Source: Pseudomonas sp. (lineage in GTDB: Bacteria; Pseudomonadota; Gammaproteobacteria; Pseudomonadales; Pseudomonadaceae). From it: DNA of 38,437 bases. How positions within the stretch are numbered: position 1 is the first letter of the stretch; the number at the start of each line of letters is the position of its first letter. Under the pieces are notes generated by a model. The model was given only the letters and a program-made list of their open reading frames with translations, was not told the DNA's origin and searched no databases. A program made the position numbers and the translations under genes. Below are positions 19,069 to 36,003 of the stretch, piece by piece. The stretch covers positions 1 through 38,437 of the forward strand of contig JAUYKV010000020.1 of NCBI GenBank assembly GCA_030699825.1. Direction: 5' to 3'.

Positions 19069-19242
19069 ATGGGTATCAGCATCTGGCAACTTCTGATCGT
19101 TCTGCTGATCGTGGTCATGCTGTTCGGCAGCAAGCGCCTGCGCAGCCTGGGCTCCGACATTGGCGGAGCGATCGGCGGCTTTCGCAAATCGATGGGCAGC
19201 GACGATGCTCCGCAACAGCCGGAATCGACCAAGCAGCCGTAA
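19069..19242 (+). CDS. tatE: TatA/TatE-type translocase component at the end of the nos operon
   Basis: A 57-residue protein with the TatA/E pattern: an N-terminal transmembrane helix ([17 protein letters not shown]), the conserved [10 protein letters not shown] hinge and an amphipathic helix [16 protein letters not shown], then a polar tail ending in [13 protein letters not shown] (19058-19062) lies 6 nt before the ATG. In Pseudomonas stutzeri a tatE gene also ends the nos operon; a role in exporting Tat-dependent NosZ is the natural reading. Just 47 bp downstream of nosL. Confidence 0.93.
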
Positions 19243-19612: not shown

Positions 19613-20290
19613 TCACTCGTGGTAACTGGCCAGTTTGAGTGTATTGATGATGCGAATGTTGCGCTGCTCCATGGCGATCAGCCCGGCATCGATCAGCCGA
19701 TGAAGAATGCGCGAGAAGGTTTCCGGCTGGATGCCCAGCTGCGAGGCAATCAGGCGTTTCGACACGTTGAGTTTGATTTTCCCATTGCCGGCGGCCTGCT
19801 CCTGGCAGAGGAAACGCGCCACCCGGCGGCTGGCATTGGCCACGGCCAGGGTGTCGATTTCAGCCAGCCGCTGGTGCAGGCGGATGCTGAAGCTGGCCAG
19901 CAGTTCCAGGCAGATGCTCGGTTGCTCTTCAAGCAGGCGACGATAGTGGGCGCCATCGATGCTTATCAGGCCGCTGGATTTCAGTGCGCTGGCGGTTACC
20001 GGATAGTGGCGGGTATCGCAGAACAGCAGGGAATCGGCAAAGATCTGCCCCGGCTGGATAACCTCGACCAGTTTCTCGTTACCTTCCGGCAGCACGCGGG
20101 TCAGAATGATCTGCCCTTCCAGCAGCAGGTAGAACCGCTCCGCCAGGTCGCCCTGATGGAAGAGGATGTCGAGGTTGTGCAGGCGTCGATAAATCGCCAG
20201 GTTGCCGACTTCCTGAAATGCGCTGTCGGGTAGCCTGTCGAACAGCTGATGCTCGCGCAGAAGGGCAAGTGTCGTAGAGTCGCTCAGCAT
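19613..20290 (-). CDS. dnr: Dnr-type Crp/Fnr family transcriptional regulator
   Basis: A 225-residue regulator with an N-terminal cyclic-nucleotide-like beta-roll, a long dimerisation helix and a C-terminal winged helix. The recognition helix reads LGIQPETFSRIL, with the E-x-x-S-R pattern that reads TTGAT half-sites. It lacks the N-terminal cysteine cluster of Anr/Fnr, which places it with the haem-based NO-responsive Dnr/NnrR class that activates nir, nor and nos. Location between nos and nar operons supports this. GAGG lies upstream of the ATG at 20290. A strong -10 candidate TAAGAT (20316-20311) and a NarL palindrome further up suggest nitrate control. Other Dnr paralogues (DnrE, DnrS) exist in some denitrifiers, so the exact paralogue is open. 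Confidence 0.9.
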   Translation of the reverse strand: MLSDSTTLALLREHQLFDRLPDSAFQEVGNLAIYRRLHNLDILFHQGDLAERFYLLLEGQIILTRVLPEGNEKLVEVIQPGQIFADSLLFCDTRHYPVTASALKSSGLISIDGAHYRRLLEEQPSICLELLASFSIRLHQRLAEIDTLAVANASRRVARFLCQEQAAGNGKIKLNVSKRLIASQLGIQPETFSRILHRLIDAGLIAMEQRNIRIINTLKLASYHE

Positions 20291-20353: not shown

Positions 20354-20369
20354 TATCTCTAAAGAGGTA
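20354..20369 (-). promoter_or_regulatory. NarL-type 7-2-7 site upstream of dnr
   Basis: On the minus strand TACCTCT-TT-AGAGATA fits the NarL heptamer pair (TACyymT facing AkrrGTA) with one departure. It overlaps the stop codon of the upstream P-box gene and has the same sequence form as the sites at 22558 and 26092. Confidence 0.75.
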
Positions 20370-21132
20370 GCTCGGCGTAGGCTCGAGTCAGGTCTTCCAT
20401 CTGCTTGAGCAGTGTCTCGCTGGTGATGCTGATCAGCGTCGGCACATAGCGGGCATCCTCGGACAGGTGAAAACCCTGTTGCGAAAATTCCCATTGTGCG
20501 CTGGCTTTGACCAGCGCCGCGTTGATCTCTGTAGTGTTTTCCGGTGCGATGCGCAACTCTTCCAGAGCCTGGCTGAACTCGTCCACTGCCTGGCCGAACT
20601 GGGTCTGCAGTTCTTGCTGTGGCAGCTTCCAGCTCAGTGCCAGATACAGCTTGGCGATGCGCTGGCTGAGCATGCGCTGGCGGCCGCTACGGTTGACCAG
20701 TTGCGCGGTGCGCCCGGCGCCGGATCGTTCGATCTGCGCCACCAGGGTCTCGCACTCGGCGAGCAGTTGATCGCTGAGGCTCAGTACCCGCACCGCGGAT
20801 TCGCGTTCGGGCCGCTGCAGAACCAGGCTGCGGTATTCCTGCCAGTGCAGGCTGACCCGTTGCAGTTGCTGCTCGATGGCTGGGCTGGCGGCATAGTCAT
20901 CCAGGGTGAGAAGGTTGCTTTCGAAGCGCGCCAGGCTCTCATCGAGCTGCCGACTGGCCTGTTCAGTCCGAACCTCGGTACCGATCATCAGGTAATTCTT
21001 GGCGATGCGTTGGCTGAGCATGCGCTGCATGCCCGACAGGTTGACCGCCTCAGCGACGCCGATGGCCGCCCACAGCGAAGGGCTGAGGAACACCAGGCCG
21101 AACAGCAGTCCGCACCAGTTTTTCTTGCGCAT
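20359..21132 (-). CDS. Secreted protein with two NarX-type P-box (PilJ/nitrate sensor) domains
   Basis: A 257-residue protein with a Sec signal (residues 1-22, ending SPSLWA) and no further transmembrane span, so it should be periplasmic. It consists of two copies of the four-helix PilJ/NarX-type sensor domain; each begins with a P-box-like motif: NLSGMQRMLSQRI (31-43) and NRSGRQRMLSQRI (148-160). In NarX/NarQ, the arginines of this motif bind nitrate and nitrite across a dimer interface. Here no HAMP, kinase or chemotaxis module follows. It lies 83 bp after the porin and 68 bp before dnr, all on the minus strand. Start ATG 21132 has GGAGAG upstream; the longer frame start lies in the porin spacer. 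A role in binding nitrate or nitrite is inferred. Confidence 0.88.
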   Translation of the reverse strand: MRKKNWCGLLFGLVFLSPSLWAAIGVAEAVNLSGMQRMLSQRIAKNYLMIGTEVRTEQASRQLDESLARFESNLLTLDDYAASPAIEQQLQRVSLHWQEYRSLVLQRPERESAVRVLSLSDQLLAECETLVAQIERSGAGRTAQLVNRSGRQRMLSQRIAKLYLALSWKLPQQELQTQFGQAVDEFSQALEELRIAPENTTEINAALVKASAQWEFSQQGFHLSEDARYVPTLISITSETLLKQMEDLTRAYAELPL

Positions 21133-21185: not shown

Positions 21186-21208
21186 GCTCGGTAAAAAAAC
21201 GACCGAGC
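21186..21208 (-). other. Intercistronic hairpin with A/T-rich loop between porin and P-box gene
   Basis: A perfect 7-bp stem GCTCGGT / ACCGAGC holds a loop with seven T on the minus strand, starting 8 bp past the porin stop codon. The T run is in the loop and not after the stem, so it is not a standard terminator; it may be a 3'-end stabiliser or partial terminator. Confidence 0.45.
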
Positions 21209-21215
21209 CTATCGC

Positions 21216-22436
21216 TCAATAGCTGTACTGCGCCTGCAGCCAGAGCTTGTCGGTGTCCACGGCGAAATCGTCGGCATCATAGCCGGCGTACTTCACCAGG
21301 CCGACCAGGCCCTTCACGCCGGGAATCGCATGGGCGTAGGAAACATCGATCTCCGAGCCGTAGTTGCTGCTGCCCCGCTCGGCGCGAAAGTCGTGATACC
21401 AGGCCTGCAGGCTGCCGCCGAACAGCGGTGCGGTGGCGCCGAAGTAGGCGTCCTTGACCCCGTTGGCCGGGGTCAACAGGAAGAGGTCGGCCCAACCCTG
21501 GAAGGCGTGCTTGGTCGCCAGCGGGGTCTGGAAGGCACGGTTGCCCGGTCCCGAGTCGCCACCGAGCACTTCGTAGCCGCCCTTCAGCGCCACGCCTTTG
21601 AGTGTATAACCCAGTTCGGCCAAGTAGTACTCGCTGTCCAGATCCTGCGGATTGTCGGCATAGTCCTTCTGCTGTGCATATTCCAGGGCATAGCTGAGCC
21701 CCGAGATGGCGCCGTTCAGGCGCAGGCCGCTGGTCTGGCTCGACTGGTTGCCGGCCAGCAGGTTATCCAGGCTCAGACGGTACTGGTAGGCGGTGGCAGT
21801 CAGTTCCGGCATGAGCACATATTGGACATTCAGCAGGTGACTGTGGCCTTCGATATTGGCCGGGTTGCTGGCGTTGTCGAAACGATTGTCGCCGGGGCCG
21901 AAGATGCTGTTGATATTGTCGATGTAGGCGTAGGTCAGGGTCAGGCCGTCCAGTGGCTTGAGCTGGCCGAGCACGCCGTCGTAGGTCTGCTCGTTCTGGC
22001 GCCAGGCGACGCCGCCGACGAAGCGCTGGTTGTCCAGGTTGATGCGCTGGCGGCCAGCCACGGCATTGCCGAGGGCGAAATCGTAGCGCAGCAGGGCCTG
22101 ATTGATCTCGCTGCCATCGGGGTCGGCGACCACCGAGTAGTCGCCCTGGCCGTTGCGCGTGCTGTTGTAGCTGGCATCGCCGATGCGGCTGACGTTGTCG
22201 GCTTCGATGAGGCCGGAGAGGCCGTACCACTTGCCGCTCTGGAAACCGACGCGGGTGCGGATGGTCTGGGCGTTGGCGTTGTTCAGGGCGTTGTCCTGGT
22301 CGACGTGTTCGTAGCGGTAACGCAGGTCGAGGATCGGCTTGCCGTCCTTGAACAGGTTGACGAAGTTTTCGCTGGCCCCGGCGCTGCTGATGCAGGCGAG
22401 TAGGGCAAGGGCGATTGGCGTCATGCGGATTTTCAT
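21216..22436 (-). CDS. Outer-membrane porin, alginate-export-like beta-barrel family
   Basis: A 406-residue protein with a Sec signal (MKIRMTPIALALLACISSAGA) and a body of alternating amphipathic strands typical of a 16-18 stranded barrel: LRYRYEHVDQDN, RTRVGFQSGKWYGLSGLIEA, GRQRINLDNQRFVGG and so on, ending in the aromatic strand KLWLQAQYSY. It resembles alginate-export-type (AlgE-like) barrels found beside many metabolic operons. GAGG lies 8 nt before the ATG. An Anr/Dnr box (22496-22509), a TAACGT -10 and a NarL palindrome (22558-22573) lie upstream, so expression during nitrate respiration is expected; nitrate or nitrite passage is the obvious but unproven role. Confidence 0.87.
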   Translation of the reverse strand: MKIRMTPIALALLACISSAGASENFVNLFKDGKPILDLRYRYEHVDQDNALNNANAQTIRTRVGFQSGKWYGLSGLIEADNVSRIGDASYNSTRNGQGDYSVVADPDGSEINQALLRYDFALGNAVAGRQRINLDNQRFVGGVAWRQNEQTYDGVLGQLKPLDGLTLTYAYIDNINSIFGPGDNRFDNASNPANIEGHSHLLNVQYVLMPELTATAYQYRLSLDNLLAGNQSSQTSGLRLNGAISGLSYALEYAQQKDYADNPQDLDSEYYLAELGYTLKGVALKGGYEVLGGDSGPGNRAFQTPLATKHAFQGWADLFLLTPANGVKDAYFGATAPLFGGSLQAWYHDFRAERGSSNYGSEIDVSYAHAIPGVKGLVGLVKYAGYDADDFAVDTDKLWLQAQYSY

Positions 22437-22495: not shown

Positions 22496-22509
22496 TTGAC
22501 GGCCATCAA
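22496..22509 (-). promoter_or_regulatory. Anr/Dnr (FNR-type) box of the porin gene
   Basis: TTGACGGCCATCAA (plus strand) has both half-sites intact, TTGAC and ATCAA. Its place relative to the -10 points to activation of the minus-strand porin gene. Confidence 0.85.
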
Positions 22510-22557: not shown

Positions 22558-22573
22558 TACCTCTAAAGAGGTC
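22558..22573. promoter_or_regulatory. NarL-type 7-2-7 site between porin and carbonic anhydrase
   Basis: TACCTCT-AA-AGAGGTC is a near-perfect NarL palindrome with a single end mismatch. It lies between two divergent Anr/Dnr promoters, about 104 bp upstream of the porin start and about 90 bp upstream of the carbonic anhydrase start, so it may serve both. Confidence 0.8.
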
Positions 22574-22643: not shown

Positions 22644-22649
22644 TATCCT
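22644..22649 (+). promoter_or_regulatory. Predicted -10 element of the carbonic anhydrase gene (TATCCT)
   Basis: TATCCT is placed for a start near 22656, which would give a 35-nt leader to the ATG at 22691. Confidence 0.55.
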
Positions 22650-22690
22650 TGCGCATGCCCCTGCCGCCGGCGGGGAAATCGGGAGCATCG

Positions 22691-23530: not shown

Positions 23531-24187
23531 CTAACGCAGATGCTCCATCGCCCAGACTGCGGCCTCGACCCGCGAGCGCAGACCGAGTTTGTGCAGCAGG
23601 TTTTTCACATGGACCTTGACCGTGCCTTCGGTGATGCCGAGTTTGTGGCCGATGACCTTGTTGCTGTGGCCGGCGGCGATGGTTTTCAGCACCTGGCGTT
23701 CGCGGTCGGTGAGGTCGACTTGCGAGCTGGTATGGGGCGAGCGCAGGGCCTGGGCGAGGATTCGGGTCAGGGTGGGGCTGACCACCAAACTGCCTTGCAG
23801 GGCGTCGCGGATCAACTGGATCAACAGCTCCGGTTCCATGTCCTTGAGCAGGTAGCCATCGGCATCCAGGCGCATGGCATCGCGGATGTCGTCTTCGGAA
23901 TCGGACACGGTGAAGATCAGCACCTTGCCTTGATAGTGCCTCTCGCGCAGGCGGCGCAGGGTTTCCAGGCCGTTCATCTGCGGCATGTTGTTGTCCAGCA
24001 GGATCAGCTCGGGTTGTAGCTGGCCGATCAGATCCAGGGCCTCCTGGCCATTTCCGGCTTCGCCGACGACTTCCAGGTCTTCCTCTAGCTCGAGCAGCTG
24101 GCGCATGCCGCGACGCATCATCGGGTGATCGTCGACCAGCAGGATGCTGTGGCGCAGGGGCGTGCTATGGCCGATGGATGGTTTCAT
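23531..24187 (-). CDS. narL: NarL, nitrate/nitrite response regulator
   Basis: A 218-residue response regulator. The receiver domain (about 13-130) has the acidic pair LLVDDHP, phosphoacceptor Asp65 in LILLDNNMPQMNG, the switch Thr in IFTVSD and Lys in LLKDME. The C-terminal LuxR-type helix-turn-helix (about 150-212) reads LTDRERQVLKTIAAG..NKVIGHKLGITEGTVKVHVKNLL in its parts. It binds TACyymT heptamers; three 7-2-7 pairs lie in this window. Its ATG overlaps the narX stop (ATGA), so the pair is translationally coupled. Convergent with the carbonic anhydrase gene. Confidence 0.95.
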   Translation of the reverse strand: MKPSIGHSTPLRHSILLVDDHPMMRRGMRQLLELEEDLEVVGEAGNGQEALDLIGQLQPELILLDNNMPQMNGLETLRRLRERHYQGKVLIFTVSDSEDDIRDAMRLDADGYLLKDMEPELLIQLIRDALQGSLVVSPTLTRILAQALRSPHTSSQVDLTDRERQVLKTIAAGHSNKVIGHKLGITEGTVKVHVKNLLHKLGLRSRVEAAVWAMEHLR

Positions 24188-25983
24188 GCGGCGCTACCTT
24201 CTTCGTGATGCCCGAGGAACTCGGGGTGGAACTGCAAATGGATACGGGTGCCCGAGGGCGTGCGGGCTTCGATGCTGAGTTGGCCATGCAGGCTGCGCGC
24301 ACGCTCCTGCATGATGGTCAGGCCGTGGTGCTGGCGCGGGTCGAAGCCCGCAACCAGGCCGCAACCATCGTCCTCGACCGACAATTCGACCTGTTCGCCG
24401 ATCTGCCGCAGGCGCAGCCAGGCGTGGTTGGCCCGGGCATGCCGGGCACAGTTGGACAGCGCCTCGCGGGCGATCTGCAACAGATGAATCTGCTCGTTGG
24501 CCGAGAGCTGGAAGGCCAGGCGGTCGATCTGCAGTTCGGCGCTGAAATCACCGCGTTTGGCGAACTCCTGCATCGTGTCCTTGAGTTCCTGGTCGAGTCC
24601 GCCGTCCTGAATCTGCAAACGGAAGGTGGTCAGCAGTTCGCGCAGTTGCCGGTAGGCGCTGTTCAGACCGTCGCGCAGCTCGTTAGTGACGGTCTCCAGA
24701 TTCTGTGCGCTTTCACCACGACGGATCAGGGTCTGCAGGCGGCTGACCTGTAGTTTCATGTAGGACAGTGCCTGGGCCAGCGAGTCATGCAGTTCGCGGG
24801 CGATGATGGTGCGCTCGTCGAGCAGCAACAGACGGTTTTCCTGCTCGCGCTGACGCTTGAGCGACAGTGCCGTACCAACCTGGTTGGCCAGGGCCTGAAT
24901 CAGCGCGGTTTCCCAGGCCTGCGGTCTGCGTCCGTCGCGGAAGTGGGCTTTCAGTTCGCCCAGATTATTGCCCTGGTTGTTGATGCTGAAGACGGCCTGG
25001 TCGGGGTTGATCTTGCGCTCGCAGGTGGCGCAATCGCTGCGCGCACAGACCTCGCGGGTTTCGCTGCCATGCAGGGCCAGCAACTGCTCGCTGGGTGCAT
25101 GGACATTGTCCTCCAGGCACAGGGTCAGGCGCAGGCCCGGCAGGCGCTGCTGGAAACGACTGATCAGCTCGTCGAGGCGTTCGACGTTGGCCTGGCGGGT
25201 GGCCAGGCTGCGGCTGTTCTGGTAGAGCAACTCGAGGGCCGCATTGGTTTGCGCCAGGGTCTGGGTCTTCTGCGCCACCCGGCTTTCCAGGGTGCGGTGC
25301 GACTCCTCAATGGTTTCGGCCATGGCGTTGAAACTCTCGGCCATCTGTCCCAGCTCGTCCTCCGAGCGGAATTCGACCCGCGCAGAGTGATCGCCGTTGC
25401 GAAAACGCTCGGCCACCCCGACCAGTTCCTGCAGCGGGCTGATCACATTGAGCTGCAGTTCGTACATACCCACCAGCAGGATGATCACGGTAATCAGCAG
25501 GGCGGCGCCCTGGATGCTCTGCTGCCAGCTCTGGCGGTGTTCGCTCTGTTTCTGCAGGAGCATGACGAAGTGTTCCAGCTGGGCGACGAAGTTCTCGGTG
25601 TGCTGCACGAAGGAGGCCTTGTCGCCGCGATCCAGGGCCGGACGCAACTGTTCCTGCCATAGCCTGTTGATCTCGCGGTGAGCCTTGTACAGCGGGTCGT
25701 CCGGCTTGCTGCTGATGCGCCGTTGCAGGCTGCCGTCCAGACGCTGCTGCAGGTCGTCGCGCAGCGCGGCTATGACTTGCGCAGGTGCGTTGGCCTCGAG
25801 TTGCCAGTTCAGGCGGTAGGTGGCCATGCGCAGGGAGCCGGCGGTATTGATCGCTGCTGCGTCGTCTTCGCTGAACCAGGCGATCAGTCCGGCGCTGATT
25901 GAGCTGCCAAGGGCCAGCACGGCAATCAGGGTCACCGCCAAACCGGCCCTTACCGGTACCGAACTGCGCATCCATCTCAACAT
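24184..25983 (-). CDS. narX: NarX, nitrate/nitrite sensor histidine kinase
   Basis: A 599-residue inner-membrane sensor. Order of parts: transmembrane helix 1 (about 12-35); periplasmic four-helix sensor domain with the P-box DAAAINTAGSLRMATYR (41-57) that binds nitrate; transmembrane helix 2 (about 158-178); HAMP; a central GAF-like module with a Cys cluster (Cys313, Cys318, Cys321); a HisKA_3 domain with phosphoacceptor His399 in ARELHDSLAQAL; and a HATPase domain with EALSNCARHARA and DDGCG. Start is set at ATG 25983 with GGAGGT 10 nt upstream; an in-frame ATG at 26037 has no ribosome site. Divergent from narK1 with a shared NarL site between them. Confidence 0.95.
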   Translation of the reverse strand: MLRWMRSSVPVRAGLAVTLIAVLALGSSISAGLIAWFSEDDAAAINTAGSLRMATYRLNWQLEANAPAQVIAALRDDLQQRLDGSLQRRISSKPDDPLYKAHREINRLWQEQLRPALDRGDKASFVQHTENFVAQLEHFVMLLQKQSEHRQSWQQSIQGAALLITVIILLVGMYELQLNVISPLQELVGVAERFRNGDHSARVEFRSEDELGQMAESFNAMAETIEESHRTLESRVAQKTQTLAQTNAALELLYQNSRSLATRQANVERLDELISRFQQRLPGLRLTLCLEDNVHAPSEQLLALHGSETREVCARSDCATCERKINPDQAVFSINNQGNNLGELKAHFRDGRRPQAWETALIQALANQVGTALSLKRQREQENRLLLLDERTIIARELHDSLAQALSYMKLQVSRLQTLIRRGESAQNLETVTNELRDGLNSAYRQLRELLTTFRLQIQDGGLDQELKDTMQEFAKRGDFSAELQIDRLAFQLSANEQIHLLQIAREALSNCARHARANHAWLRLRQIGEQVELSVEDDGCGLVAGFDPRQHHGLTIMQERARSLHGQLSIEARTPSGTRIHLQFHPEFLGHHEEGSAA

Positions 25984-26091
25984 CGAACTGACTACCTCCA
26001 AAGAACTCGGGCTGCCCGCAGGCTCGTGGGCAATCATTTATATCAGTTATAACTATCTGTTTTTAAAGACTTTTAGTAAGAAAAAACGGAC

Positions 26092-26107
26092 TACCACTTA
26101 AGAGGTA
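26092..26107. promoter_or_regulatory. NarL-type 7-2-7 site between narX and narK1
   Basis: TACCACT-TA-AGAGGTA fits the facing heptamer pair. Its centre is about 93 bp upstream of the predicted narK1 start and close to the AT-rich narX promoter area, so it can serve activation of the nar operon and autoregulation of narXL. Confidence 0.85.
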
Positions 26108-26219: not shown

Positions 26220-27500
26220 ATGGCAAGTTTGAGAATACAGCAGAGCCTGGTTCTGGGTATGAGCACCTTGGCGTTTACTATCTGCTTCATGATCTGGATG
26301 ATGTTCGCTGTACTCGGCGTTCCGATCAAGGAGTTACTGCAACTCAACGATACCCAGTTCGGCCTGCTGGCCGCCACGCCGGTGCTCACCGGTTCGCTGG
26401 TGCGCCTGCCGCTGGGCATGCTCACCGACAGGTTCGGCGGGCGCATCGTGTTCTTCCTGCTGATGCTGGTTTGTGTGCTGCCGATCTACATGATCAGCCT
26501 GGCTACCGAGTACTGGCATTTCCTGGTCCTTGGACTGTTCGTCGGCATGGCCGGCGGTTCCTTCTCGGTCGGCATCGCCTATGTCGCCAAGTGGTTCGAA
26601 AAGCAGAACCAGGGCTTCGCCATGGGCGTCTTCGGTGCCGGTAACGCCGGCTCCGCGCTGACCAAGTTCGTCGCGCCGGCGATCATCGCCGCGGCCAGCT
26701 GGCAGATGGTGCCCAAGGTCTACTCGGCGATCATGTTCATCACCGCGCTGCTGTTCTGGTTCTGCACCTACGAGAACAAGAGTCATCGGGTACGTAGCAA
26801 CGTGTCCCTGGCCGATCAACTGCGCACCCTGAAAGATCCCAAGGTGATGCGCTACTGCCAGTACTACTCGATCGTCTTCGGCGGCTATGTGGCCCTGGCC
26901 CTGTGGATGACCAAGTATTACGTCGAGGAGTACGGCTTCAACCTGCAGAGCGCCGCCTTGCTGGCTGCCTGCTTCTCCCTGCCGGGCGGCGTGCTGCGCG
27001 CCATGGGTGGCTGGATGTCGGACAAGTGGGGCGCGCAGAGCGTGACCTGGTGGGTGATGTGGGTGAGTTGGGTGTGCCTGTTCCTGCTGTCCTACCCGCA
27101 GACCGAGTTGATCATCCAAACCATCAATGGCCCGCAGACCTACAACATCGGCCTGAATGCCTGGGGCTTCACCATACTGCTGTTCATCGTCGGTATCGCC
27201 TTCGCCTTCGGCAAGGCCTCGGTGTTCAAGTACATCTCCGATGACTACCCGAACAACATGGGCGCCATCTCCGGCATCGTCGGCCTGGCCGGCGGCCTCG
27301 GTGGCTTCATTCTGCCAATCATGTTCGGTGCCCTGGTCGACCTGACCGGCATACGGTCCTCAAGTTTCATGCTGATGTACGGCGTGGTCTGGGTCTCCCT
27401 GATCTGGATGTACTTCAGCGAAGTTCGCAAAACCTCCGTTATGGGCCAGGCCTCCGAAAGGTCACCGGCTCCCGCTATCCTGCCGCTTGAAGGAGAATGA
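26220..27500 (+). CDS. narK1: NarK1, nitrate transporter (MFS nitrate/nitrite porter)
   Basis: A 426-residue inner-membrane transporter with twelve predicted helices. It has the family nitrate-signature glycine motifs GVFGAGNAGSALTKF in helix 5 and GIVGLAGGLGGFILP in helix 11, and the MFS loop GMLTDRFGGR. NarK1-type porters are proposed nitrate/proton symporters. RBS AAGGGG lies 6 nt before the ATG. First gene of the nar operon; its stop overlaps an ATG of the next gene. Confidence 0.95.
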   Translation: MASLRIQQSLVLGMSTLAFTICFMIWMMFAVLGVPIKELLQLNDTQFGLLAATPVLTGSLVRLPLGMLTDRFGGRIVFFLLMLVCVLPIYMISLATEYWHFLVLGLFVGMAGGSFSVGIAYVAKWFEKQNQGFAMGVFGAGNAGSALTKFVAPAIIAAASWQMVPKVYSAIMFITALLFWFCTYENKSHRVRSNVSLADQLRTLKDPKVMRYCQYYSIVFGGYVALALWMTKYYVEEYGFNLQSAALLAACFSLPGGVLRAMGGWMSDKWGAQSVTWWVMWVSWVCLFLLSYPQTELIIQTINGPQTYNIGLNAWGFTILLFIVGIAFAFGKASVFKYISDDYPNNMGAISGIVGLAGGLGGFILPIMFGALVDLTGIRSSSFMLMYGVVWVSLIWMYFSEVRKTSVMGQASERSPAPAILPLEGE

Positions 27501-27502
27501 GC

Positions 27503-28918
27503 ATGTCCGCAATCAAGAACCCGGCCTTGGGGGGCAAGCCCAAGGTGGGCCCGGTGATCGATGACTGGCGTCCGGAAGACCCACACTTCTGGGGCAGCAT
27601 CGGCAAGTCGATAGCTTCGCGCAACCTGTGGATCTCGATCCCCGCGCTGTTTCTGGCATTCGCCGTGTGGATGGTGTGGAGCGCGGTGATCGTGCGCCTG
27701 AACAGCATCGGCTTCACCTTTACCAACGACCAGCTGTTCTGGCTGGCGGCGTTGCCGGGCTTGTCCGGCGCCACCCTGCGGATCTTCTACTCGTTCATGG
27801 TGCCGATTTTCGGTGGCCGTAGATGGACGGCGCTGAGTACCGCGTCCTTGCTGATTCCGGCGTTGTGGATGGGCTTCGCGGTGCAGGACCTGGCCACCCC
27901 CTACAGCGTGTTCGTGATCATCGCCTTGCTGTGCGGCTTCGGTGGCGGCAACTTCGCATCGAGCATGTCCAACATCAGCTTCTTCTTTCCCAAGGCCCAG
28001 CAGGGCACCGCGCTCGGTTTGAATGCCGGCCTCGGTAACCTCGGCGTATCGGTGATGCAGTTCGGCGTGCCCTTGGTGATCGGCATGGGCCTTTTTGGCG
28101 CCGTCGGTGGCCAGGCCCAGGAACTCGGCGATGGCAACCAGCTGTGGCTGCAGAACGCCGGCTTCATCTGGGTACCGTTCATTGCGGCGGTGACCGTGGC
28201 GGCCTGGTTTGGCATGAACGACCTGAGCAGCGCCAAGGCCTCGTTCGCCGAACAGGCGGTGATCTTCAAGCGCAAGCACAACTGGTTGATGTGCTGGCTG
28301 TACCTGGCCACTTTCGGTTCCTTCATCGGCTTCGCCGCCGGCTTCCCGATGCTGATCAAGACCCAGTTTCCTGGCGTCGATCCGCTCAAATTCGCCTTCC
28401 TCGGCCCGCTGGTCGGCGCCCTGGCGCGCCCGCTGGGTGGCTGGCTGGCAGACAAACTGGGCGGCGCGCGGGTCACCCTGTGGAATTTCGTGCTGATGAT
28501 CGCCGCGGTGTTCGGTGTGCTGGCCTTCATTCCTCAGGCCGGCGTCGAGGGCAACTTCTACGGTTTCCTGGCCATGTTCATGCTGTTGTTCATCACCACC
28601 GGTATTGGCAACGGCTCCACCTTCCGCATGATCCCGGTGATCTTCCGCACCCTGCACGAGCGCGACAGCATCGGCAAGACGGCGGCGGTCAAGGAGCAGG
28701 CGCTGAAAAATGCCGGTAAGGAAGCAGCAGCGGTGCTAGGTTTTAGTTCGGCAATGGGCGCCTACGGGGCGTTCTTCATTCCGAAATCCTTCGGCACCTC
28801 GATGGCGCTGACCGGCGGTCCGCAGATGGCGCTGTACGTGTTCGCCGGCTATTACGTCAGCTGCATCCTGGTGACCTGGTGGTGGTACTCGCGCAAAGGC
28901 GCGGAAACCCCCTGCTAA
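27503..28918 (+). CDS. narK2: NarK2, nitrate/nitrite antiporter
   Basis: A 471-residue MFS porter with twelve helices. The N-terminal DWRPEDPHFW segment and the signatures GLNAGLGNLGVSVMQF and VLGFSSAMGAYGAFFIPK mark the NarK2 group, which exchanges nitrate for nitrite. Two nearby ATGs exist; 27503 was chosen because AAGGAG (27490-27495) is 7 nt away, while the ATG at 27497 (overlapping the narK1 stop) is only 1 nt away. Paired with narK1 as in other Pseudomonas. NarG follows after 117 bp. Confidence 0.95.
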   Translation: MSAIKNPALGGKPKVGPVIDDWRPEDPHFWGSIGKSIASRNLWISIPALFLAFAVWMVWSAVIVRLNSIGFTFTNDQLFWLAALPGLSGATLRIFYSFMVPIFGGRRWTALSTASLLIPALWMGFAVQDLATPYSVFVIIALLCGFGGGNFASSMSNISFFFPKAQQGTALGLNAGLGNLGVSVMQFGVPLVIGMGLFGAVGGQAQELGDGNQLWLQNAGFIWVPFIAAVTVAAWFGMNDLSSAKASFAEQAVIFKRKHNWLMCWLYLATFGSFIGFAAGFPMLIKTQFPGVDPLKFAFLGPLVGALARPLGGWLADKLGGARVTLWNFVLMIAAVFGVLAFIPQAGVEGNFYGFLAMFMLLFITTGIGNGSTFRMIPVIFRTLHERDSIGKTAAVKEQALKNAGKEAAAVLGFSSAMGAYGAFFIPKSFGTSMALTGGPQMALYVFAGYYVSCILVTWWWYSRKGAETPC

Positions 28919-29035: not shown

Positions 29036-32000
29036 ATGAGTCACATACTCGACCAGTTGCGTTTCTTCAACCGTAAACAGGGTGAGTTCGCCGATGGTCA
29101 TGGCGAAACCCGCATCGAGTCACGCGATTGGGAGAACGTCTATCGTTCGCGCTGGCAGTACGACAAGATCGTGCGTTCCACCCACGGGGTGAACTGCACC
29201 GGCTCGTGCTCCTGGAAGATCTACGTGAAGAACGGCCTGATCACCTGGGAAACCCAGCAGACCGACTACCCACGTACCCGCAACGACCTGCCCAACCATG
29301 AGCCGCGCGGCTGTCCGCGTGGTGCCAGCTACAGCTGGTACATCTACAGCGCCAACCGTCTCAAGTATCCCAAGGTGCGCAAGCCGCTGTTGAAACTCTG
29401 GCGTGAAGCCCGAGCCACCATGGCGCCGGTGCAGGCCTGGGCGAGCATCGTCGAAGACCCGGTCAAGGCCGAGTCCTACAAGAGCAAGCGCGGCATGGGC
29501 GGCTTCATCCGCTCGAGCTGGAACGAAGTCAACGAAATCATCGCCGCGGCCAACGTCTACACCGTCAAAGAGCACGGCCCGGACCGGGTGATGGGCTTCT
29601 CGCCGATCCCTGCCATGTCGATGGTCAGCTACGCCGCCGGCAGCCGTTACCTGTCGCTGATCGGTGGCGTGTGTCTGTCCTTCTACGACTGGTACTGCGA
29701 CCTGCCGCCGGCTTCGCCGCAGGTGTGGGGTGAGCAGACCGACGTGCCGGAATCGGCCGACTGGTACAACTCCAACTACATCATCGCCTGGGGCTCCAAC
29801 GTGCCGCAGACGCGTACCCCGGACGCCCACTTCTTTACCGAAGTGCGCTACAAGGGCACCAAGACCGTGGCCATCACTCCGGACTACTCCGAAGTGGCCA
29901 AGCTCACCGATCTCTGGCTGAACCCCAAGCAGGGCACCGATGCGGCGCTGGCGCAGGCGTTCAACCACGTTATTTTCAAAGAGTTTCACCTCGACAAGCC
30001 GAGCGCCTACTTCACCGACTACGTGCGTCGCTATACCGACTTCCCGATGCTGGTGATGCTCAAGGAGCACGCCGAGGGTAGCTATCAGCCGGATCGGTTC
30101 CTGCGCGCCTCTGACCTGGCCGCCAACCTGGATCAGGCAAACAACCCCGAGTGGAAGACCATCGCGCTGGACAGCGAGACCAATCAACTGGTGTCGCCGC
30201 TGGGTTCGATCGGCTACCGCTGGGGCGAGAAGGGCAAGTGGAACATCGAGGCCCGCGAAGGTGGTGACGGTCGTGAAGTCAAGCTGCAACTCAGCCTGAT
30301 CGGTGAAGATGTAGCCGAAGTAGCGTTCCCGTACTTCGGTGGCCAGACCCACGAGCACTTCCAGCATGTGGCCGGTGACGAAGTACAGTTGCGCCGTGTA
30401 CCGGTACGCAGCATCACCCTGGCTGACGGTTCGCAAGCCAAGGTCGCCACCGTGTTCGACCTGTCGGCGGCCAACCTGGCGATCGACCGTGGTCTGGGTG
30501 GCGGCAACGTCGCCAAGGATTACAACGACGCCAACGTACCGGGCACCCCGGCCTGGCAGGAGCAGATTACCGGCGTCAGCCGCGAGAAGGCGATTCAGAT
30601 TGCCCGCGAATTCGCTGACAACGCCGACAAGACCAAGGGTCGTTCCATGATCATCGTCGGTGCGGCGATGAACCATTGGTACCACATGGACATGAACTAC
30701 CGCGGCCTCATCAACATGCTGATGATGTGCGGTTGCGTAGGCCAAACCGGTGGTGGCTGGGCCCACTATGTCGGCCAGGAAAAACTGCGTCCGCAGTGTG
30801 GCTGGTTGCCGCTGGCCTTCGGCCTGGACTGGAGCCGTCCGCCACGCCATATGAACGGCACCAGCTTCTTCTATGCGCACAGCTCGCAATGGCGCCACGA
30901 GACGATGAACATGCACGAAGTGCTCTCGCCTCTGGCCGACAAATCGCAGTTCCCCGAGCATGCGCTGGACTACAACATCCGCGCCGAACGCGCCGGCTGG
31001 TTGCCGAGCGCGCCACAGCTCAACCGTAACCCGCTGCAAATTACCAAGGATGCGGCAGCAGCCGGCATGTCGCCGGTGGATTACGTACTCAAGTCGCTGC
31101 AGGACGACTCGCTGCGTTTCTCCTGCGAGCAGCCGGACAGCCCGGAGAACTTCCCGCGCAACATGTTCATCTGGCGCTCCAACCTGTTGGGCAGCTCGGG
31201 CAAAGGCCACGAGTACATGCTCAAGTACCTGCTGGGCACCAAGAACGGCGTGATGAACGAAGACCTTGGCAAGCGTGGCGGGGTCAAGCCGAACGATGTC
31301 GAGTGGGTTGACGAAGGTGCGATCGGCAAGCTCGATCTGGTCACCACCCTGGACTTCCGCATGTCTTCCACCTGCGTTTACTCGGACATCGTTCTGCCGA
31401 CGGCGACCTGGTACGAGAAGGACGACATGAACACCTCGGACATGCACCCCTTCATCCACCCGCTGTCCGCGGCCATCGATCCGGCCTGGGAATCGCGTTC
31501 CGACTGGGAAATCTACAAGGGCATCGCCAAAGCCTTCTCCGAGATGTCGGTCGGCCATCTGGGTGTCGAGCAAGATCTGGTCACCATTCCGATGCAGCAC
31601 GACAGCGTCGGCGAACTGGCTCAGCCGTTCGGAGGCATCGACTGGAAAACTGCAGGTGAAACGCCGGTACCGGGCAAGAACTGCCCGAATATGACCGTGG
31701 TCGAGCGCGACTACCCGAACGTCTACAAGAAGTTTACCTCTCTTGGCCCGCTGCTCGACAAGCTGGGTAACGGCGGCAAGGGCATCGACTGGAACACCGA
31801 GCACGAGGTCGAATTCCTCGGCGAGTTGAACCACAAGGTGCGCGACGAAGGCGTCAGCAAAGGTCGGCCGCAAATCGAATCGGCCATCGATGCCTGCGAG
31901 GTGATCCTCACCCTGGCCCCGGAAACCAACGGTCACGTGGCGCTCAAGGCCTGGGCGGCGCTGTCGGAGTTTACCGGCCTGGATCACAGCCACCTGGCGA

Positions 32001-32791
32001 TCAACAAGGCGCATGAGGCGATCCGCTTCCGCGACATCCAGGCGCAACCGCGCAAGATCATCTCCAGCCCAACCTGGTCGGGTCTGGAAGACGAGAAGGT
32101 CAGCTACAACGCCGGCTACACCAACGTTCACGAGTTCATCCCGTGGCGCACCATCACCGGCCGCCAGCAGTTCTTCCAGGATCACCCGTGGATGCAGGCG
32201 TTTGGCGAGGAGCTGATGAGCTACCGGCCGCCGATCAACACCCGCACCATCGATCACGTGAAGGGCAAGCGGCCTAACGGCAACACTGAGATCGTTCTCA
32301 ACTGGATCACTCCGCACCAGAAGTGGGGTATCCACAGCACCTACAGCGACAACCTGATCATGCTTACCCTGAGCCGTGGCGGGCCGATCATTTGGCTCTC
32401 GGAAATCGACGCCAAGCGTGCCGGCGTCGAGGACAACGACTGGGTTGAATGCTTCAACGTCAACGGTGCTCTGGTCGCCCGCGCGGTAGTCAGCCAGCGG
32501 GTCAAGGAGGGCATGGTCATGATGTACCACGCCCAGGAACGCATCATGAACATGCCTGGCAGCGAGATGACCAAGACTCGCGGTGGCCACCACAACTCGG
32601 TGACCCGCGTAGTGCTCAAGCCGACCCACATGATCGGTGGCTATGCCCAGCAGTCCTACGGTTTCAACTATTACGGCACGGTCGGTTGCAACCGCGACGA
32701 GTTCGTCGTGGTACGCAAGATGGACAAGATCGACTGGCTTGACGGCACAGACGACGAAGCCCTGCCACAACCCCTGCCACAAGACATTTGA
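29036..32791 (+). CDS. narG: NarG, respiratory nitrate reductase alpha subunit (catalytic)
   Basis: A 1251-residue molybdo-bis-MGD subunit on the cytoplasmic side of the membrane that reduces nitrate to nitrite. The FS0 cluster ligands are His50, Cys54, Cys58 and Cys93 in THGVNCTGSCSW and PRGCPRG. The Mo ligand Asp lies in FYDWYCDLPPASPQVWGEQT (about residue 223 by alignment with the E. coli enzyme). The absence of a twin-arginine signal but presence of the remnant start fits the membrane-bound cytoplasm-facing NarG type and not Nap. AGAGG lies before the ATG at 29036. Length is standard. The narH gene starts 11 bp after its stop. Confidence 0.98.
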   Translation: MSHILDQLRFFNRKQGEFADGHGETRIESRDWENVYRSRWQYDKIVRSTHGVNCTGSCSWKIYVKNGLITWETQQTDYPRTRNDLPNHEPRGCPRGASYSWYIYSANRLKYPKVRKPLLKLWREARATMAPVQAWASIVEDPVKAESYKSKRGMGGFIRSSWNEVNEIIAAANVYTVKEHGPDRVMGFSPIPAMSMVSYAAGSRYLSLIGGVCLSFYDWYCDLPPASPQVWGEQTDVPESADWYNSNYIIAWGSNVPQTRTPDAHFFTEVRYKGTKTVAITPDYSEVAKLTDLWLNPKQGTDAALAQAFNHVIFKEFHLDKPSAYFTDYVRRYTDFPMLVMLKEHAEGSYQPDRFLRASDLAANLDQANNPEWKTIALDSETNQLVSPLGSIGYRWGEKGKWNIEAREGGDGREVKLQLSLIGEDVAEVAFPYFGGQTHEHFQHVAGDEVQLRRVPVRSITLADGSQAKVATVFDLSAANLAIDRGLGGGNVAKDYNDANVPGTPAWQEQITGVSREKAIQIAREFADNADKTKGRSMIIVGAAMNHWYHMDMNYRGLINMLMMCGCVGQTGGGWAHYVGQEKLRPQCGWLPLAFGLDWSRPPRHMNGTSFFYAHSSQWRHETMNMHEVLSPLADKSQFPEHALDYNIRAERAGWLPSAPQLNRNPLQITKDAAAAGMSPVDYVLKSLQDDSLRFSCEQPDSPENFPRNMFIWRSNLLGSSGKGHEYMLKYLLGTKNGVMNEDLGKRGGVKPNDVEWVDEGAIGKLDLVTTLDFRMSSTCVYSDIVLPTATWYEKDDMNTSDMHPFIHPLSAAIDPAWESRSDWEIYKGIAKAFSEMSVGHLGVEQDLVTIPMQHDSVGELAQPFGGIDWKTAGETPVPGKNCPNMTVVERDYPNVYKKFTSLGPLLDKLGNGGKGIDWNTEHEVEFLGELNHKVRDEGVSKGRPQIESAIDACEVILTLAPETNGHVALKAWAALSEFTGLDHSHLAINKAHEAIRFRDIQAQPRKIISSPTWSGLEDEKVSYNAGYTNVHEFIPWRTITGRQQFFQDHPWMQAFGEELMSYRPPINTRTIDHVKGKRPNGNTEIVLNWITPHQKWGIHSTYSDNLIMLTLSRGGPIIWLSEIDAKRAGVEDNDWVECFNVNGALVARAVVSQRVKEGMVMMYHAQERIMNMPGSEMTKTRGGHHNSVTRVVLKPTHMIGGYAQQSYGFNYYGTVGCNRDEFVVVRKMDKIDWLDGTDDEALPQPLPQDI

Positions 32792-32802
32792 GGAGCTCTG
32801 CC

Positions 32803-34341
32803 ATGAAAATTCGTTCGCAAGTCGGCATGGTCCTCAATCTGGACAAGTGCATCGGTTGCCACACCTGTTCGATCACCTGCAAAAACGTCTGGACCAGCCG
32901 CGAAGGTATGGAATACGCCTGGTTCAACAACGTCGAAACCAAGCCAGGTATCGGCTACCCCAAGGAATGGGAAAACCAGGACAAGTGGAGAGGCGGCTGG
33001 ATCCGCAACAAAGACGGCTCGATCAATCCGAAGATCGGCGGCAAGTTCCGCGTACTGGCGAATATCTTCGCCAACCCGAACATGCCGACCATCGACGACT
33101 ACTACGAGCCGTTCGATTTCGACTATCAGCACCTGCACACCGCTCCCCTGGGCGAGCACCAGCCGACTGCTCGACCACGTTCGGTGATCAGCGGCAAGCG
33201 CATGCAGAAGATCGAGTGGGGCCCGAACTGGGAGGAAATTCTCGGTACCGAGTTCGCCAAGCGTCGCAAGGACAAGAACTTCGACCAGATCCAGGCCGAC
33301 ATCTATGGCGAGTATGAAAATACTTTCATGATGTACCTGCCGCGTCTGTGCGAGCACTGCCTTAACCCGGCGTGTGCGGCGTCCTGCCCGAGCGGTGCGA
33401 TCTACAAGCGTGAAGAGGACGGTATCGTCCTGATCGACCAGGAAAAATGCCGTGGCTGGCGCATGTGCATCAGCGGCTGCCCGTACAAGAAGATCTACTT
33501 CAACTGGAAGAGCGGTAAATCCGAGAAGTGCATCTTCTGCTACCCGCGCATCGAGGCCGGCATGCCGACCGTGTGTTCGGAAACCTGCGTGGGCCGTATC
33601 CGCTACCTCGGCGTGCTGCTGTACGACGCCGACCGCATCCATGAAGTGGCGAGCACGCCGAACGAGCAGGATTTGTACCAGAAGCAACTGGACATGTTCC
33701 TCGACCCGTTCGATCCGAAGGTCATCGCCCAGGCCCTGGCCGACGGCGTGCCCATGTCGGTGATCGACGCTGCGCAGAAATCCCCGGTGTACAAGATGGC
33801 GGTGGACTGGAAGCTGGCCCTGCCGCTGCACCCGGAATACCGCACCCTGCCGATGGTCTGGTACGTACCGCCGCTGTCGCCGATCCAGAACGCCGCGACT
33901 GCGGGCACCGTGGGCATGAACGGGGTTATCCCGGATGTCGACAGCCTGCGCATTCCGCTGCGCTACCTGGCCAACCTGCTTACCGCCGGCGACGTCGTAC
34001 CGGTCAAGTTGGCGCTCAAACGTCTGTTGGCCATGCGTGCCTACAAGCGTTCCGAGCAAGTGGATGGCGTGCAGGATCTGCAGGTGCTGGCTGATGTCGG
34101 CCTGAGCGTGGCGCAAGTCGAAGACATGTACCGCTACCTGGCGATCGCCAACTACGAAGACCGTTTCGTGGTGCCAAGCACCCACCGCGAGGAAGCCATG
34201 AGCGATACCTTCGCCGAGCGTTCCGGCTGTGGCTTCAGCTTCGGCAGCGGTTGCAGTGGCTCCTCCGACACCAACATGTTCGGGGCGAAGAAGTCCAACC
34301 AGCGCGACATCCTCAAAACCGTACAGTTGTGGGAGGACTGA
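32803..34341 (+). CDS. narH: NarH, respiratory nitrate reductase beta subunit (iron-sulfur)
   Basis: A 512-residue electron-transfer subunit with four clusters. The first motif is CIGCHTCSITC (Cys16, 19, 22, 26); the second and third groups are CEHCLNPACAASCP and CRGWRMCISGCP, where Trp replaces one Cys and so marks the [3Fe-4S] site; the last group is CIFCYPRIEAGMPTVCSETC. The C-terminal ERSGCGFSFGSGC segment is normal for NarH. AGGAG (32791-32795) lies 7 nt before the ATG at 32803. Electrons pass from NarI haem through NarH to NarG. Confidence 0.98.
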   Translation: MKIRSQVGMVLNLDKCIGCHTCSITCKNVWTSREGMEYAWFNNVETKPGIGYPKEWENQDKWRGGWIRNKDGSINPKIGGKFRVLANIFANPNMPTIDDYYEPFDFDYQHLHTAPLGEHQPTARPRSVISGKRMQKIEWGPNWEEILGTEFAKRRKDKNFDQIQADIYGEYENTFMMYLPRLCEHCLNPACAASCPSGAIYKREEDGIVLIDQEKCRGWRMCISGCPYKKIYFNWKSGKSEKCIFCYPRIEAGMPTVCSETCVGRIRYLGVLLYDADRIHEVASTPNEQDLYQKQLDMFLDPFDPKVIAQALADGVPMSVIDAAQKSPVYKMAVDWKLALPLHPEYRTLPMVWYVPPLSPIQNAATAGTVGMNGVIPDVDSLRIPLRYLANLLTAGDVVPVKLALKRLLAMRAYKRSEQVDGVQDLQVLADVGLSVAQVEDMYRYLAIANYEDRFVVPSTHREEAMSDTFAERSGCGFSFGSGCSGSSDTNMFGAKKSNQRDILKTVQLWED

Positions 34342-34343
34342 GC

Positions 34344-35099
34344 ATGCAAATTCTCAAAGTAATTTCCCTGCTGCTTGACTATCCCACTGAGCAATTGGTG
34401 GTCGGGCGTGACGAGTTGGCTCAGGCAATTTCCAGCAGCCGCGAAATCAGCCCGGAGCAGCGCAATGCGCTGCACGAGCTGCTCAAGCTGATCTGCGACA
34501 ACGATCTGATGGACGGCCAGGAGCACTACGGTGCCCTGTTCGGCCGTGGTCGCTCGCTATCGCTGCTGCTGTTCGAGCACGTACACGGCGAGTCGCGTGA
34601 TCGTGGTCAGGCCATGGTCGACATGATGGCGCAGTACGAAGAGGCCGGTTTTGCGATCGGCATCAAGGAACTGCCTGACTATATTCCGCTGTATCTGGAA
34701 TTCCTCTCCACCCGCGAGGATCTGGAAGCCCGCGAGGGCCTGGCAGATGTCAGTCATCTGCTGACGCTGTTGGCTACTCGTCTGGACGAGCGCGAAAGTG
34801 CTTATGCCAGCTGCTTCCGTGCCCTTTTGCAGATCGCCGGGGTCGAGCCTCAAGAGGCCATGGCAGGGATGCGCGAGCAGGTCGCCGCCGAGGTACGCGA
34901 CGACTCGCTCGAAGCCCTCGACAAGATCTGGGAGGAGGAGGCCGTGGACTTCCTCCAGGCCGAGCAGCAGGACCGCTGCCCGAGCCAGACGACCTTACCG
35001 GGCAAGACCCGCGAAGAAGTGCCGGTGCCGCTGCACTGGGTGGATTTCAAGCATGAAGGGCCGGCCGCCGCGCCGGTTCAGGAGGTGCGCAATGTCTAA
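34344..35099 (+). CDS. narJ: NarJ, nitrate reductase assembly chaperone
   Basis: A 251-residue soluble chaperone of the TorD/NarJ group that keeps NarGH ready for cofactor insertion and membrane docking. Typical segments are QILKVISLLLDYPTE at the start, LFEHVHGESRDRGQAMV in the middle and LPDYIPLYLEFLS. GGAGG lies just upstream of the ATG at 34344, which follows the narH stop by 2 bp. The C-terminus overlaps the narI start by 8 bp. It is not part of the final enzyme. Confidence 0.95.
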   Translation: MQILKVISLLLDYPTEQLVVGRDELAQAISSSREISPEQRNALHELLKLICDNDLMDGQEHYGALFGRGRSLSLLLFEHVHGESRDRGQAMVDMMAQYEEAGFAIGIKELPDYIPLYLEFLSTREDLEAREGLADVSHLLTLLATRLDERESAYASCFRALLQIAGVEPQEAMAGMREQVAAEVRDDSLEALDKIWEEEAVDFLQAEQQDRCPSQTTLPGKTREEVPVPLHWVDFKHEGPAAAPVQEVRNV

Positions 35100-35904
35100 C
35101 ATCAATCTGTTGGCGTTCGGGGTGTATCCCTACATCGCCCTGGCCATCTGCATCATCGGCAGCTGGGCGCGTTTCGACCTGTCGCAGTACAGCTGGAAGG
35201 CCGGATCGAGCCAGATCTTCGCCCGTTCGGCGGCCGAGCAACGCTACATGCGCATCGCCAGCAACCTGTTCCACGTCGGCGTGCTGTTTGTCCTGGCCGG
35301 CCACTTCGTCGGTCTGTTGATGCCCGAGGCGCTCTACCACTCGGTCATCAGTACGCAGAACAAGCAGCTGCTGGCCATGGTCACCGGTGGTTTCTTCGGC
35401 ATTCTCTGCCTGATCGGTCTGGTCATGCTGCTCAAGCGTCGCTTCAACGATCAGCGGGTGCGGGCCAGTTCCAGCACCTCGGACATGATGGTGTTGATCG
35501 TGCTGCTGGTGCAACTGGTCCTCGGCCTGCTGACCATCGTCGCTTCGACCAGCCACATGGATGGTTCGGTGATGGTGATGCTGGCCAACTGGGCGCAGTA
35601 CACCGTAACCCTGCAACCGATGGCAGCCGCTGCAGCTATCGAACCGGTGGGCCTGGTCTACAAGCTGCACGTATTCCTCGGTCTGACCCTGTTCGTGCTG
35701 TTCCCCTTCACCCGCCTGGTGCACATCGTCAGCGCACCGGTGTGGTACTTGGGCCGGCGCTACCAGATCGTTCGGCAGAAGGGCGTGCATCCGGTCGTGC
35801 AACGGCCGCAGGTTCGTCCGCTTGCGCAATCTGCTCGTGAAATCCCCGGGCAGCCGCAGCAGTCTGGCTATCCCATGGGCGCAGCCAAAGCCAAGGGCCA
35901 CTGA
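35092..35904 (+). CDS. narI: NarI, respiratory nitrate reductase gamma subunit (cytochrome b), with C-terminal extension
   Basis: A 270-residue membrane cytochrome with five helices that oxidises quinol and holds two b haems. Haem-ligand histidines occur in FHVG (His61) and AGHF (His71), with the later pair in YKLHVF and RLVHIV. GGAGG (35081-35085) lies 6 nt before the ATG at 35092. The core ends at about residue 225 with RRYQIVRQK as in E. coli NarI (225 residues); about 45 more residues of polar, Pro/Gln-rich sequence follow (PVVQRPQVRPLAQS.. to AAKAKGH). Whether this tail is common in Pseudomonas I cannot verify. Confidence 0.96.
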   Translation: MSNINLLAFGVYPYIALAICIIGSWARFDLSQYSWKAGSSQIFARSAAEQRYMRIASNLFHVGVLFVLAGHFVGLLMPEALYHSVISTQNKQLLAMVTGGFFGILCLIGLVMLLKRRFNDQRVRASSSTSDMMVLIVLLVQLVLGLLTIVASTSHMDGSVMVMLANWAQYTVTLQPMAAAAAIEPVGLVYKLHVFLGLTLFVLFPFTRLVHIVSAPVWYLGRRYQIVRQKGVHPVVQRPQVRPLAQSAREIPGQPQQSGYPMGAAKAKGH

Positions 35905-35951: not shown

Positions 35952-36003
35952 TCCCATACCTGGCGTTTGAGTGAATGAATCAAGCATTAACGAGGAACTT
36001 GTC

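Follow-up and report, generated by a model that had tools for sequence, protein, structure and literature searches.

In a 38,437-nucleotide stretch of a Pseudomonas sp. genome (contig JAUYKV010000020.1, positions 1 to 38,437 of the forward strand; here called the window), a gene at 20359..21132 on the minus strand, with its ATG at 21132, encodes a protein of 257 amino acids made of two PilJ-type domains. This free double-PilJ protein, which we call PJ2, is real, and its family is conserved. We propose, as a tentative reading that falls a little short of an even chance, that PJ2 is a periplasmic receptor or carrier for nitrate (or nitrite), that it belongs to an uptake module with the neighboring predicted porin, and that it imitates a sensor dimer within a single chain. 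PJ2 has two domains and paired P-boxes, the spacing of the boxes is fixed in close relatives, and both the porin neighbor and nitrate loci recur around its gene.

The protein falls within the Pfam PilJ family (PF13675), whose model matches two stretches of it with 87.8 bits (cut-off, 26.6). An export signal is predicted at residues 1 to 22 (21067..21132, minus strand; ...SLWA/AIG, where the cleavage site is our own reading and not a computed one). This is the most hydrophobic stretch of PJ2, peaking at a Kyte-Doolittle mean of 2.0 in the 19 residues from residue 9, and past residue 25 the mean never exceeds 0.96. Based on this hydropathy profile, we predict that PJ2 is exported and has no further membrane span, as an initial annotation of the DNA had suggested from the sequence by naming a signal peptide and no transmembrane span. 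The same annotation saw no kinase, HAMP, or methyl-accepting part, and models for these and for the NIT domain (PF08376) indeed gave no match to PJ2 at E values up to 1. By hydropathy and family models, PJ2 has neither the transmembrane helices nor the HAMP and histidine kinase domains of a NarX/NarQ kinase, and the NarQ model reaches 22.1 bits against a cut-off of 553 while covering one repeat only. No Pfam family of ABC-transporter solute-binding proteins matched PJ2 at E values up to 1.

Each repeat opens with a P-box on the minus strand. Box 1 (N31-LSGMQRMLSQRI, ending at I43) occupies residues 31 to 43 (21004..21042), and box 2 (N147-RSGRQRMLSQRI, ending at I159) occupies residues 147 to 159 (20656..20694); the initial annotation had recognized both N-x-SGxQRMLSQRI repeats and the place of the first, and had set the second one residue too far along, at 148 to 160. 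The two halves align to each other (E = 4e-9, 20 of 49 residues identical), and a relaxed box pattern with A or S at position 4 has just two matches in the six-frame translation of the whole window, both in PJ2. The nitrate-contacting G-x-x-R is present twice, as G34-x-x-R37 and G150-x-x-R153. By sequence and alignment, R37 and R153 correspond to R61 in the chemoreceptor McpN, a residue that contacts nitrate on the dimer axis through two hydrogen bonds (PMC6381276).

Three protein searches with different starting points returned 4,223, 5,126, and 3,645 proteins above threshold. We examined the best 120 of each, 359 distinct proteins (one was found twice) that lean to close kin. They are ∼235 to 380 residues long, have two PilJ-type domains as a rule, and carry names that include chemotaxis-transducer fragment, histidine kinase, and pilus protein. 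Two boxes are present in 354 of these relatives, one in 3, and three in 2; in 342 of those with two, the boxes lie 116 residues apart. When A or S is allowed in the N-box, 343 of the 359 have two boxes; strict N-boxes number one in 168, two in 27, and none in 164. An alignment (A2) of 89 representatives at 75% identity is invariant at G34, R37, M38, and L39 and throughout G150-R151-Q152-R153-M154-L155 (89/89).

Other members depart from this plan. Two proteins, P0007 (381 amino acids) and P0127 (377 amino acids), have three P-boxes, at 30/146/262 and 31/148/265, the extra repeat keeping nearly the same spacing. Five copies from the window's genus or family (L039, L042, L043, L068, and L071) form a sister clade with altered boxes, MNMAGLQRSL in repeat 1 and, in L043 and L071, INRSGWNRVLT in repeat 2; the ligand of this clade may differ, and L043 lies near nirB. 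Eight distant full-length members (L070, L091, L086, L092, L069, L085, L072, and L084) have lost one or both boxes, with, for example, SAWQRTL or SSQQSML in place of SGxQRML, and none of the eight loci is a nitrate locus. The wider family, with its distant members that lose the boxes, may have further roles. Among plasmids, distant copies of PJ2 turned up in 3 records.

The fold of PJ2 was examined in two confident AlphaFold models, which show two four-helix bundles packed within one chain, as in NIT, and so the protein is predicted to be a one-chain imitation of a nitrate-sensor dimer. The first bundle superimposes on McpN (6gcv) with a root mean square deviation of 1.6 over 112 residues. The best whole-length match of both models by Z is NasR (4akk), which in the Foldseek list of the second model stands fifth and eighth by E value and first by TM-score. 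The periplasmic region of the PilJ chemoreceptor (7zjr, 8wdf) fits the models poorly over the whole length (TM, 0.24 to 0.27).

We surveyed 292 genomes of the order and counted 44 as carriers of a clear free double protein, requiring an E value below 1e-25, coverage of nearly the full length, and a reading frame shorter than 340 amino acids. Weaker or partial matches among the 109 matching genomes, many of them single-domain kinases or chemoreceptors by frame length, were not counted, and the count leaves out a few divergent free double proteins (e.g., in G039, G108, G117, and G179). A reference list of NrtA, NrtB, NrtD, NarK, NirB, a NasA-like protein, NarG, and NarX was searched within 9 kb of the best place per genome and of further copies in G305 and G269, leaving out weaker second copies such as those in G094, G143, G182, G198, G220, and G238; six contigs (L037, L040, L045, L053, L070, and L081) end inside this distance. 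The reference NrtA rests on PF13379 and position, and the reference NasA rests on its place behind nirB, as assimilatory nitrate reductase and formate dehydrogenase models all scored below cut-off. Nitrate genes were found at 8 of the 44 PJ2 places (the window, G058, G101, G233, G250, G267, G311, and G313) and in none of 40 random 18-kb stretches (P = 0.006). The random stretches were drawn from PJ2-bearing contigs; surveyed genomes supplied 34 of them, with one genome used two times, and the other 6 came from PJ2 carriers in a first survey. All eight belong to the 34 carriers with two intact boxes. The PJ2 family extends beyond nitrate respiration, with recurring contexts of nitrate uptake and assimilation.

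A tree of 60 members, built by a quick method and with many open forks and long-branch warnings, needs 10 changes of the nitrate label. It leaves out L046 to L052 (one decayed, six very divergent); the label of L008 and L012, no nitrate genes, simply reflects the ends of their contigs, and the window's label was set by hand from the scans. Elsewhere, PJ2 copies lie beside D-Tyr-tRNA deacylase and TatC genes, an ABC-F ATPase gene, or CheA-like genes (L054 to L057, L076, L087, and L089; L069, L079, and L085), and we found no common theme among these loci.

The predicted outer-membrane porin (Alginate_exp type, PF13372; 21216..22436, minus strand) lies 83 bp upstream of PJ2 on the same strand; by sequence, it matched no solved structure at E values up to 1. 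A porin stands beside PJ2 in five of six close relatives (L007 to L012; 81 to 85% identical, all Pseudomonas, including P. aestuarii, P. borbori, and P. benzenivorans), and the sixth contig starts just before the gene. In all six, a dnr-like gene is next to PJ2, and NarX is still present in four, the other two contigs ending first. PJ2 is also found beside narXL and narK in P. songnenensis (L015) and in another genus of the family (L053). Neighbor clustering covered 59 of 61 loci, a length filter having removed L009 and L013; the window, L007, L008, and L010 to L012 lay outside it. The most recurrent families were ABC-transporter ATPases, not all of the nitrate type, at 12 loci, followed by the porin and a response-regulator-like family at 8 each.

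In the survey, the porin lies immediately upstream of PJ2 at six of the eight places with nitrate genes. Three loci (L080 to L082) share the gene order nrtA-nrtB-nrtC/D-porin-PJ2, with the ATPase above the TIGR01184 cut-off, the permease below the TIGR01183 cut-off, and a binding protein of PF13379. One locus (L073) brings together narK, the porin, PJ2, nirB, and a nasA-like gene, another (L067) has nrtABC and the porin on the strand opposite PJ2, and in a third (L062) PJ2 is flanked by nrtABC and narK with no porin. Over tree-independent pairs, porin and nitrate context agree in 4.3 of 6 on average (median P = 0.125), too few for significance. Behind the intact porin of L046 (genome G014), the PJ2 copy (∼7825 to 8625) looks decayed, with a stop in frame and a match to only half of the protein.

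Several results weigh against a role in nitrate uptake. Neither PJ2 box fits the strict N-box [IVL]-[ND]-x-A-G-x-Q-R-M-L-[ST]-Q (PMC6381276), having S for A, with all other positions fitting. Because 10 of the 44 carriers lack two intact boxes, box conservation holds for the closer relatives and not for every member. The tandem PilJ domains of the PilJ chemoreceptor, in which the N-box is missing, do not bind nitrate according to the same report (PMC6381276). Foldseek gave no match to the PJ2 models with an E value up to 0.001; NasR scored 0.026 and 0.038 with the first model and 0.16 and 0.21 with the second. Direct sequence kinship between PJ2 and NIT was looked for and not found (hhalign probability, 0.2, with only 3 NIT rows). 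Coupling analysis of the inter-bundle face gave one strong symmetric pair and otherwise weak, noisy ones, so that couplings do not prove that the P-boxes face each other. The initial annotation, whose interpretation is partly supported overall, had suggested that the two halves may fold as an imitation of a sensor dimer; both models predict such a pairing of the halves within the molecule.

The genomic contexts add to these points. The best copy in 36 of the 44 carriers has no gene of the reference list within 9 kb, and a purely nitrate-uptake role therefore does not cover the family. Since four of the eight nitrate cases fall in one family, three of these in one genus (Microbulbifer, going by matching protein names), they represent about five independent nitrate lineages. 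NarG is not enriched in carriers (12/44 versus 50/248 others; P = 0.32), nor was it in the first, genus-heavy survey of 57 genomes, in which PJ2 was found in 15, NarG above cut-off in 14, and both in 2 (2/15 carriers versus 12/42 noncarriers). A tie of the whole family to respiratory nitrate reductase is rejected on these counts, and the initial annotation, which had proposed a survey of co-occurrence with nar genes and had said that homologs lying mostly away from nitrate or nitrite respiration genes would speak against it, is literally contradicted on this point. NirB is enriched in carriers (42/44 versus 157/248 others; P = 5e-6), but this figure is not corrected for kinship. Three nitrate loci (L015, L043, and L062) have no porin, two loci (L014 and L046) have the porin and PJ2 without nitrate genes, and a separate binding protein is already encoded in nrtABC loci.

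In the proposed mechanism, PJ2 would be expressed under anoxia and nitrate through Anr/Dnr-like and NarL-type sites, would capture nitrate entering the periplasm through the porin, would hold one anion between its halves by R37 and R153, and would hand it to an inner-membrane route, NarK in the window and NrtABC or NarK elsewhere. A bolder and more doubtful version is that a sensor domain has turned into a free solute receptor. A single nitrate would sit at the internal pseudo-twofold axis of the two fused domains, and the protein would dock beneath an outer-membrane porin dedicated to it and deliver nitrate to NarK or NrtABC. If so, this would be a nitrate-specific outer-membrane uptake module, present in respiratory and assimilatory nitrate loci alike, and a periplasmic equivalent of the NasR NIT receptor, by convergence or ancient kinship. 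The initial annotation had offered three roles for PJ2, namely, a buffer, a delivery protein for the porin/NarK route, and a partner that tunes NarX; delivery with the porin is the best supported, and we rate the other two lower.

The tuning role would make PJ2 a periplasmic accessory sensor, docking in its nitrate-loaded or empty state on NarX or other PilJ-type receptors. PJ2 is built only of NarX's sensor domain, so that hetero-pairing is conceivable, the two genes are near each other in the window and in L007, L009 to L011, L015, and L053, and some periplasmic binding proteins and lipoproteins tune other kinases in this way, with precedents in GltB for GtrS-GltR (PMC7927077) and QseG for QseE (PMC12691602). 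We nevertheless consider it unlikely: the nrtABC, narK-nirB, and nirB loci have no NarX within 9 kb, the porin is the commoner partner, and the predicted intramolecular pairing would use up the face by which sensors pair. The family could instead have another ligand or a structural or envelope role on a PilJ fold, the nitrate neighborhood being incidental for most members. The 36 of 44 best copies without a nitrate gene nearby are in keeping with this, as are the copies beside deacylase and TatC, ABC-F ATPase, or CheA-like genes, the lack of a NarG association, the 10 carriers without two intact boxes, and the PilJ receptor itself, which is reported to bind no nitrate (PMC6381276). Such a role is improbable for PJ2, however, given that both P-boxes keep the nitrate-contacting Gly and Arg in all 89 representatives and in 34 of the 44 surveyed carriers and that nitrate neighborhoods occur at 8 of 44 PJ2 places versus 0 of 40 random stretches. 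Quite improbable, finally, is a buffer with no dedicated partner, in which abundant periplasmic PJ2 would even out the supply or toxicity of nitrate or nitrite. It would suit a protein that is predicted to be free in the periplasm and has a conserved putative anion site, and many copies have no nitrate genes or porins nearby, but the recurring porin and transporter neighbors point to a partner, and a buffer would need a protein level comparable with that of its substrate.

The window carries a Pseudomonas-type nitrate-respiration gene cluster. Upstream of the porin lie narL (23531..24187, minus strand; NarL model, 286.9 bits, cut-off 250) and a narX/narQ-type sensor kinase gene (24184..26037, minus strand) that encodes one PilJ domain with the P-box AAINTAGSLRM and matches the NarQ and NarX models below their cut-offs. 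On the plus strand follow two NarK-type nitrate/nitrite transporter genes (26220..28918; the first below and the second above the NarK family cut-off) and, by family models, narGHJI for the respiratory nitrate reductase (29036..35904); nos genes are also present. Downstream of PJ2 is a regulator gene (19613..20290, minus strand) that family models place only in the CRP/FNR group and that, from its position, we take to be dnr.

Using consensus patterns, we found three NarL-type 7-2-7 palindromes with at most one mismatch in the window (0.10 expected). One, without mismatches, overlaps the PJ2 stop codon upstream of the dnr-like gene (20354..20369), and the others, with one mismatch each, lie upstream of the porin (22558..22573) and between narX and narK1 (26092..26107). 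An Anr/Dnr-like site, TTGACGGCCATCAA, with one mismatch, is also located upstream of the porin (22496..22509); it is weak when taken alone, as 14 such sites at up to 2 mismatches occur in the window versus 7.7 expected. From the positions of these sites, the porin and PJ2 plausibly form one nitrate- and anoxia-controlled unit, and the dnr-like gene has a NarL-type site of its own. A terminator-like hairpin with a T run (21202..21220, minus strand) overlaps the end of the porin gene before PJ2, a weak signal (4 such sites in the stretch versus 3.5 expected). The initial annotation's placement of PJ2 between dnr and a porin with NarL and Anr/Dnr sites was borne out for the neighbors and the site matches, the name dnr resting as above. 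Other genes in the window include a carbonic anhydrase gene divergent from the porin (22649 to 23317, plus strand), kept between narL and the porin in L007 and L009 to L011; a NifM/PpiC-type peptidyl-prolyl isomerase gene after narI (35971 to 36975, plus strand); and, read by eye, a small TatA/E-like frame after nosL (19069 to 19242, plus strand).

We found no description of a free double-PilJ protein in full-text searches of the open-licence literature, judged mostly from titles and abstract openings. PA3880 (AnvM), considered as a candidate for the P. aeruginosa counterpart, was rejected: it is described as having 131 amino acids and 11 cysteines and as being mainly cytoplasmic (PMC6650552). 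PA0526, next to dnr in P. aeruginosa, is listed as DnrP (PMC8575079) and is reported as induced along with dnr in a sigX mutant (PMC3832394). If our reading of PJ2 as a nitrate receptor or carrier is true, a sensor dimer condensed into a single chain captures nitrate in the periplasm. Such a protein would offer a simple, soluble setting for altering each half of a nitrate sensor site separately, and it would suggest that nitrate uptake includes a step at the outer membrane.

Among known systems, the closest solved sequence to PJ2 is the ligand-binding domain of McpN (PA2788, PDB 6gcv; E = 2.8e-5 with a single sequence and 4.3e-10 by profile), which shares the G-x-x-R-M-L box and is assigned to the same Pfam family, PF13675 (PMC6381276). 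McpN is a chemoreceptor that holds one nitrate between two chains, whereas PJ2 has two domains in one predicted exported chain and no membrane or signaling parts. NarX and NarQ (3ezh, 5jef, and others) are histidine kinases with transmembrane helices, HAMP, and kinase domains, none of which was found in PJ2. The periplasmic region of the PilJ chemoreceptor has two tandem PilJ domains, as PJ2 does, but belongs to a membrane receptor. NasR is a cytoplasmic antiterminator composed of a NIT nitrate receptor domain and an ANTAR output, with the nitrate site between the NIT bundles and R49 and R236 as the probable nitrate-binding arginines. Like PJ2, it places two bundles in one chain; unlike PJ2, it combines NIT with ANTAR, and the two have no detectable sequence kinship, PF08376 having no match in PJ2. 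NrtA-type nitrate-binding proteins (PF13379, NMT1_2) are unrelated to PJ2 in sequence but, like the role proposed here for PJ2, bind nitrate in the periplasm as part of an uptake locus, and L082 encodes an NMT1_2 protein (326 bits) and PJ2 in the same locus, as do L080 and L081.
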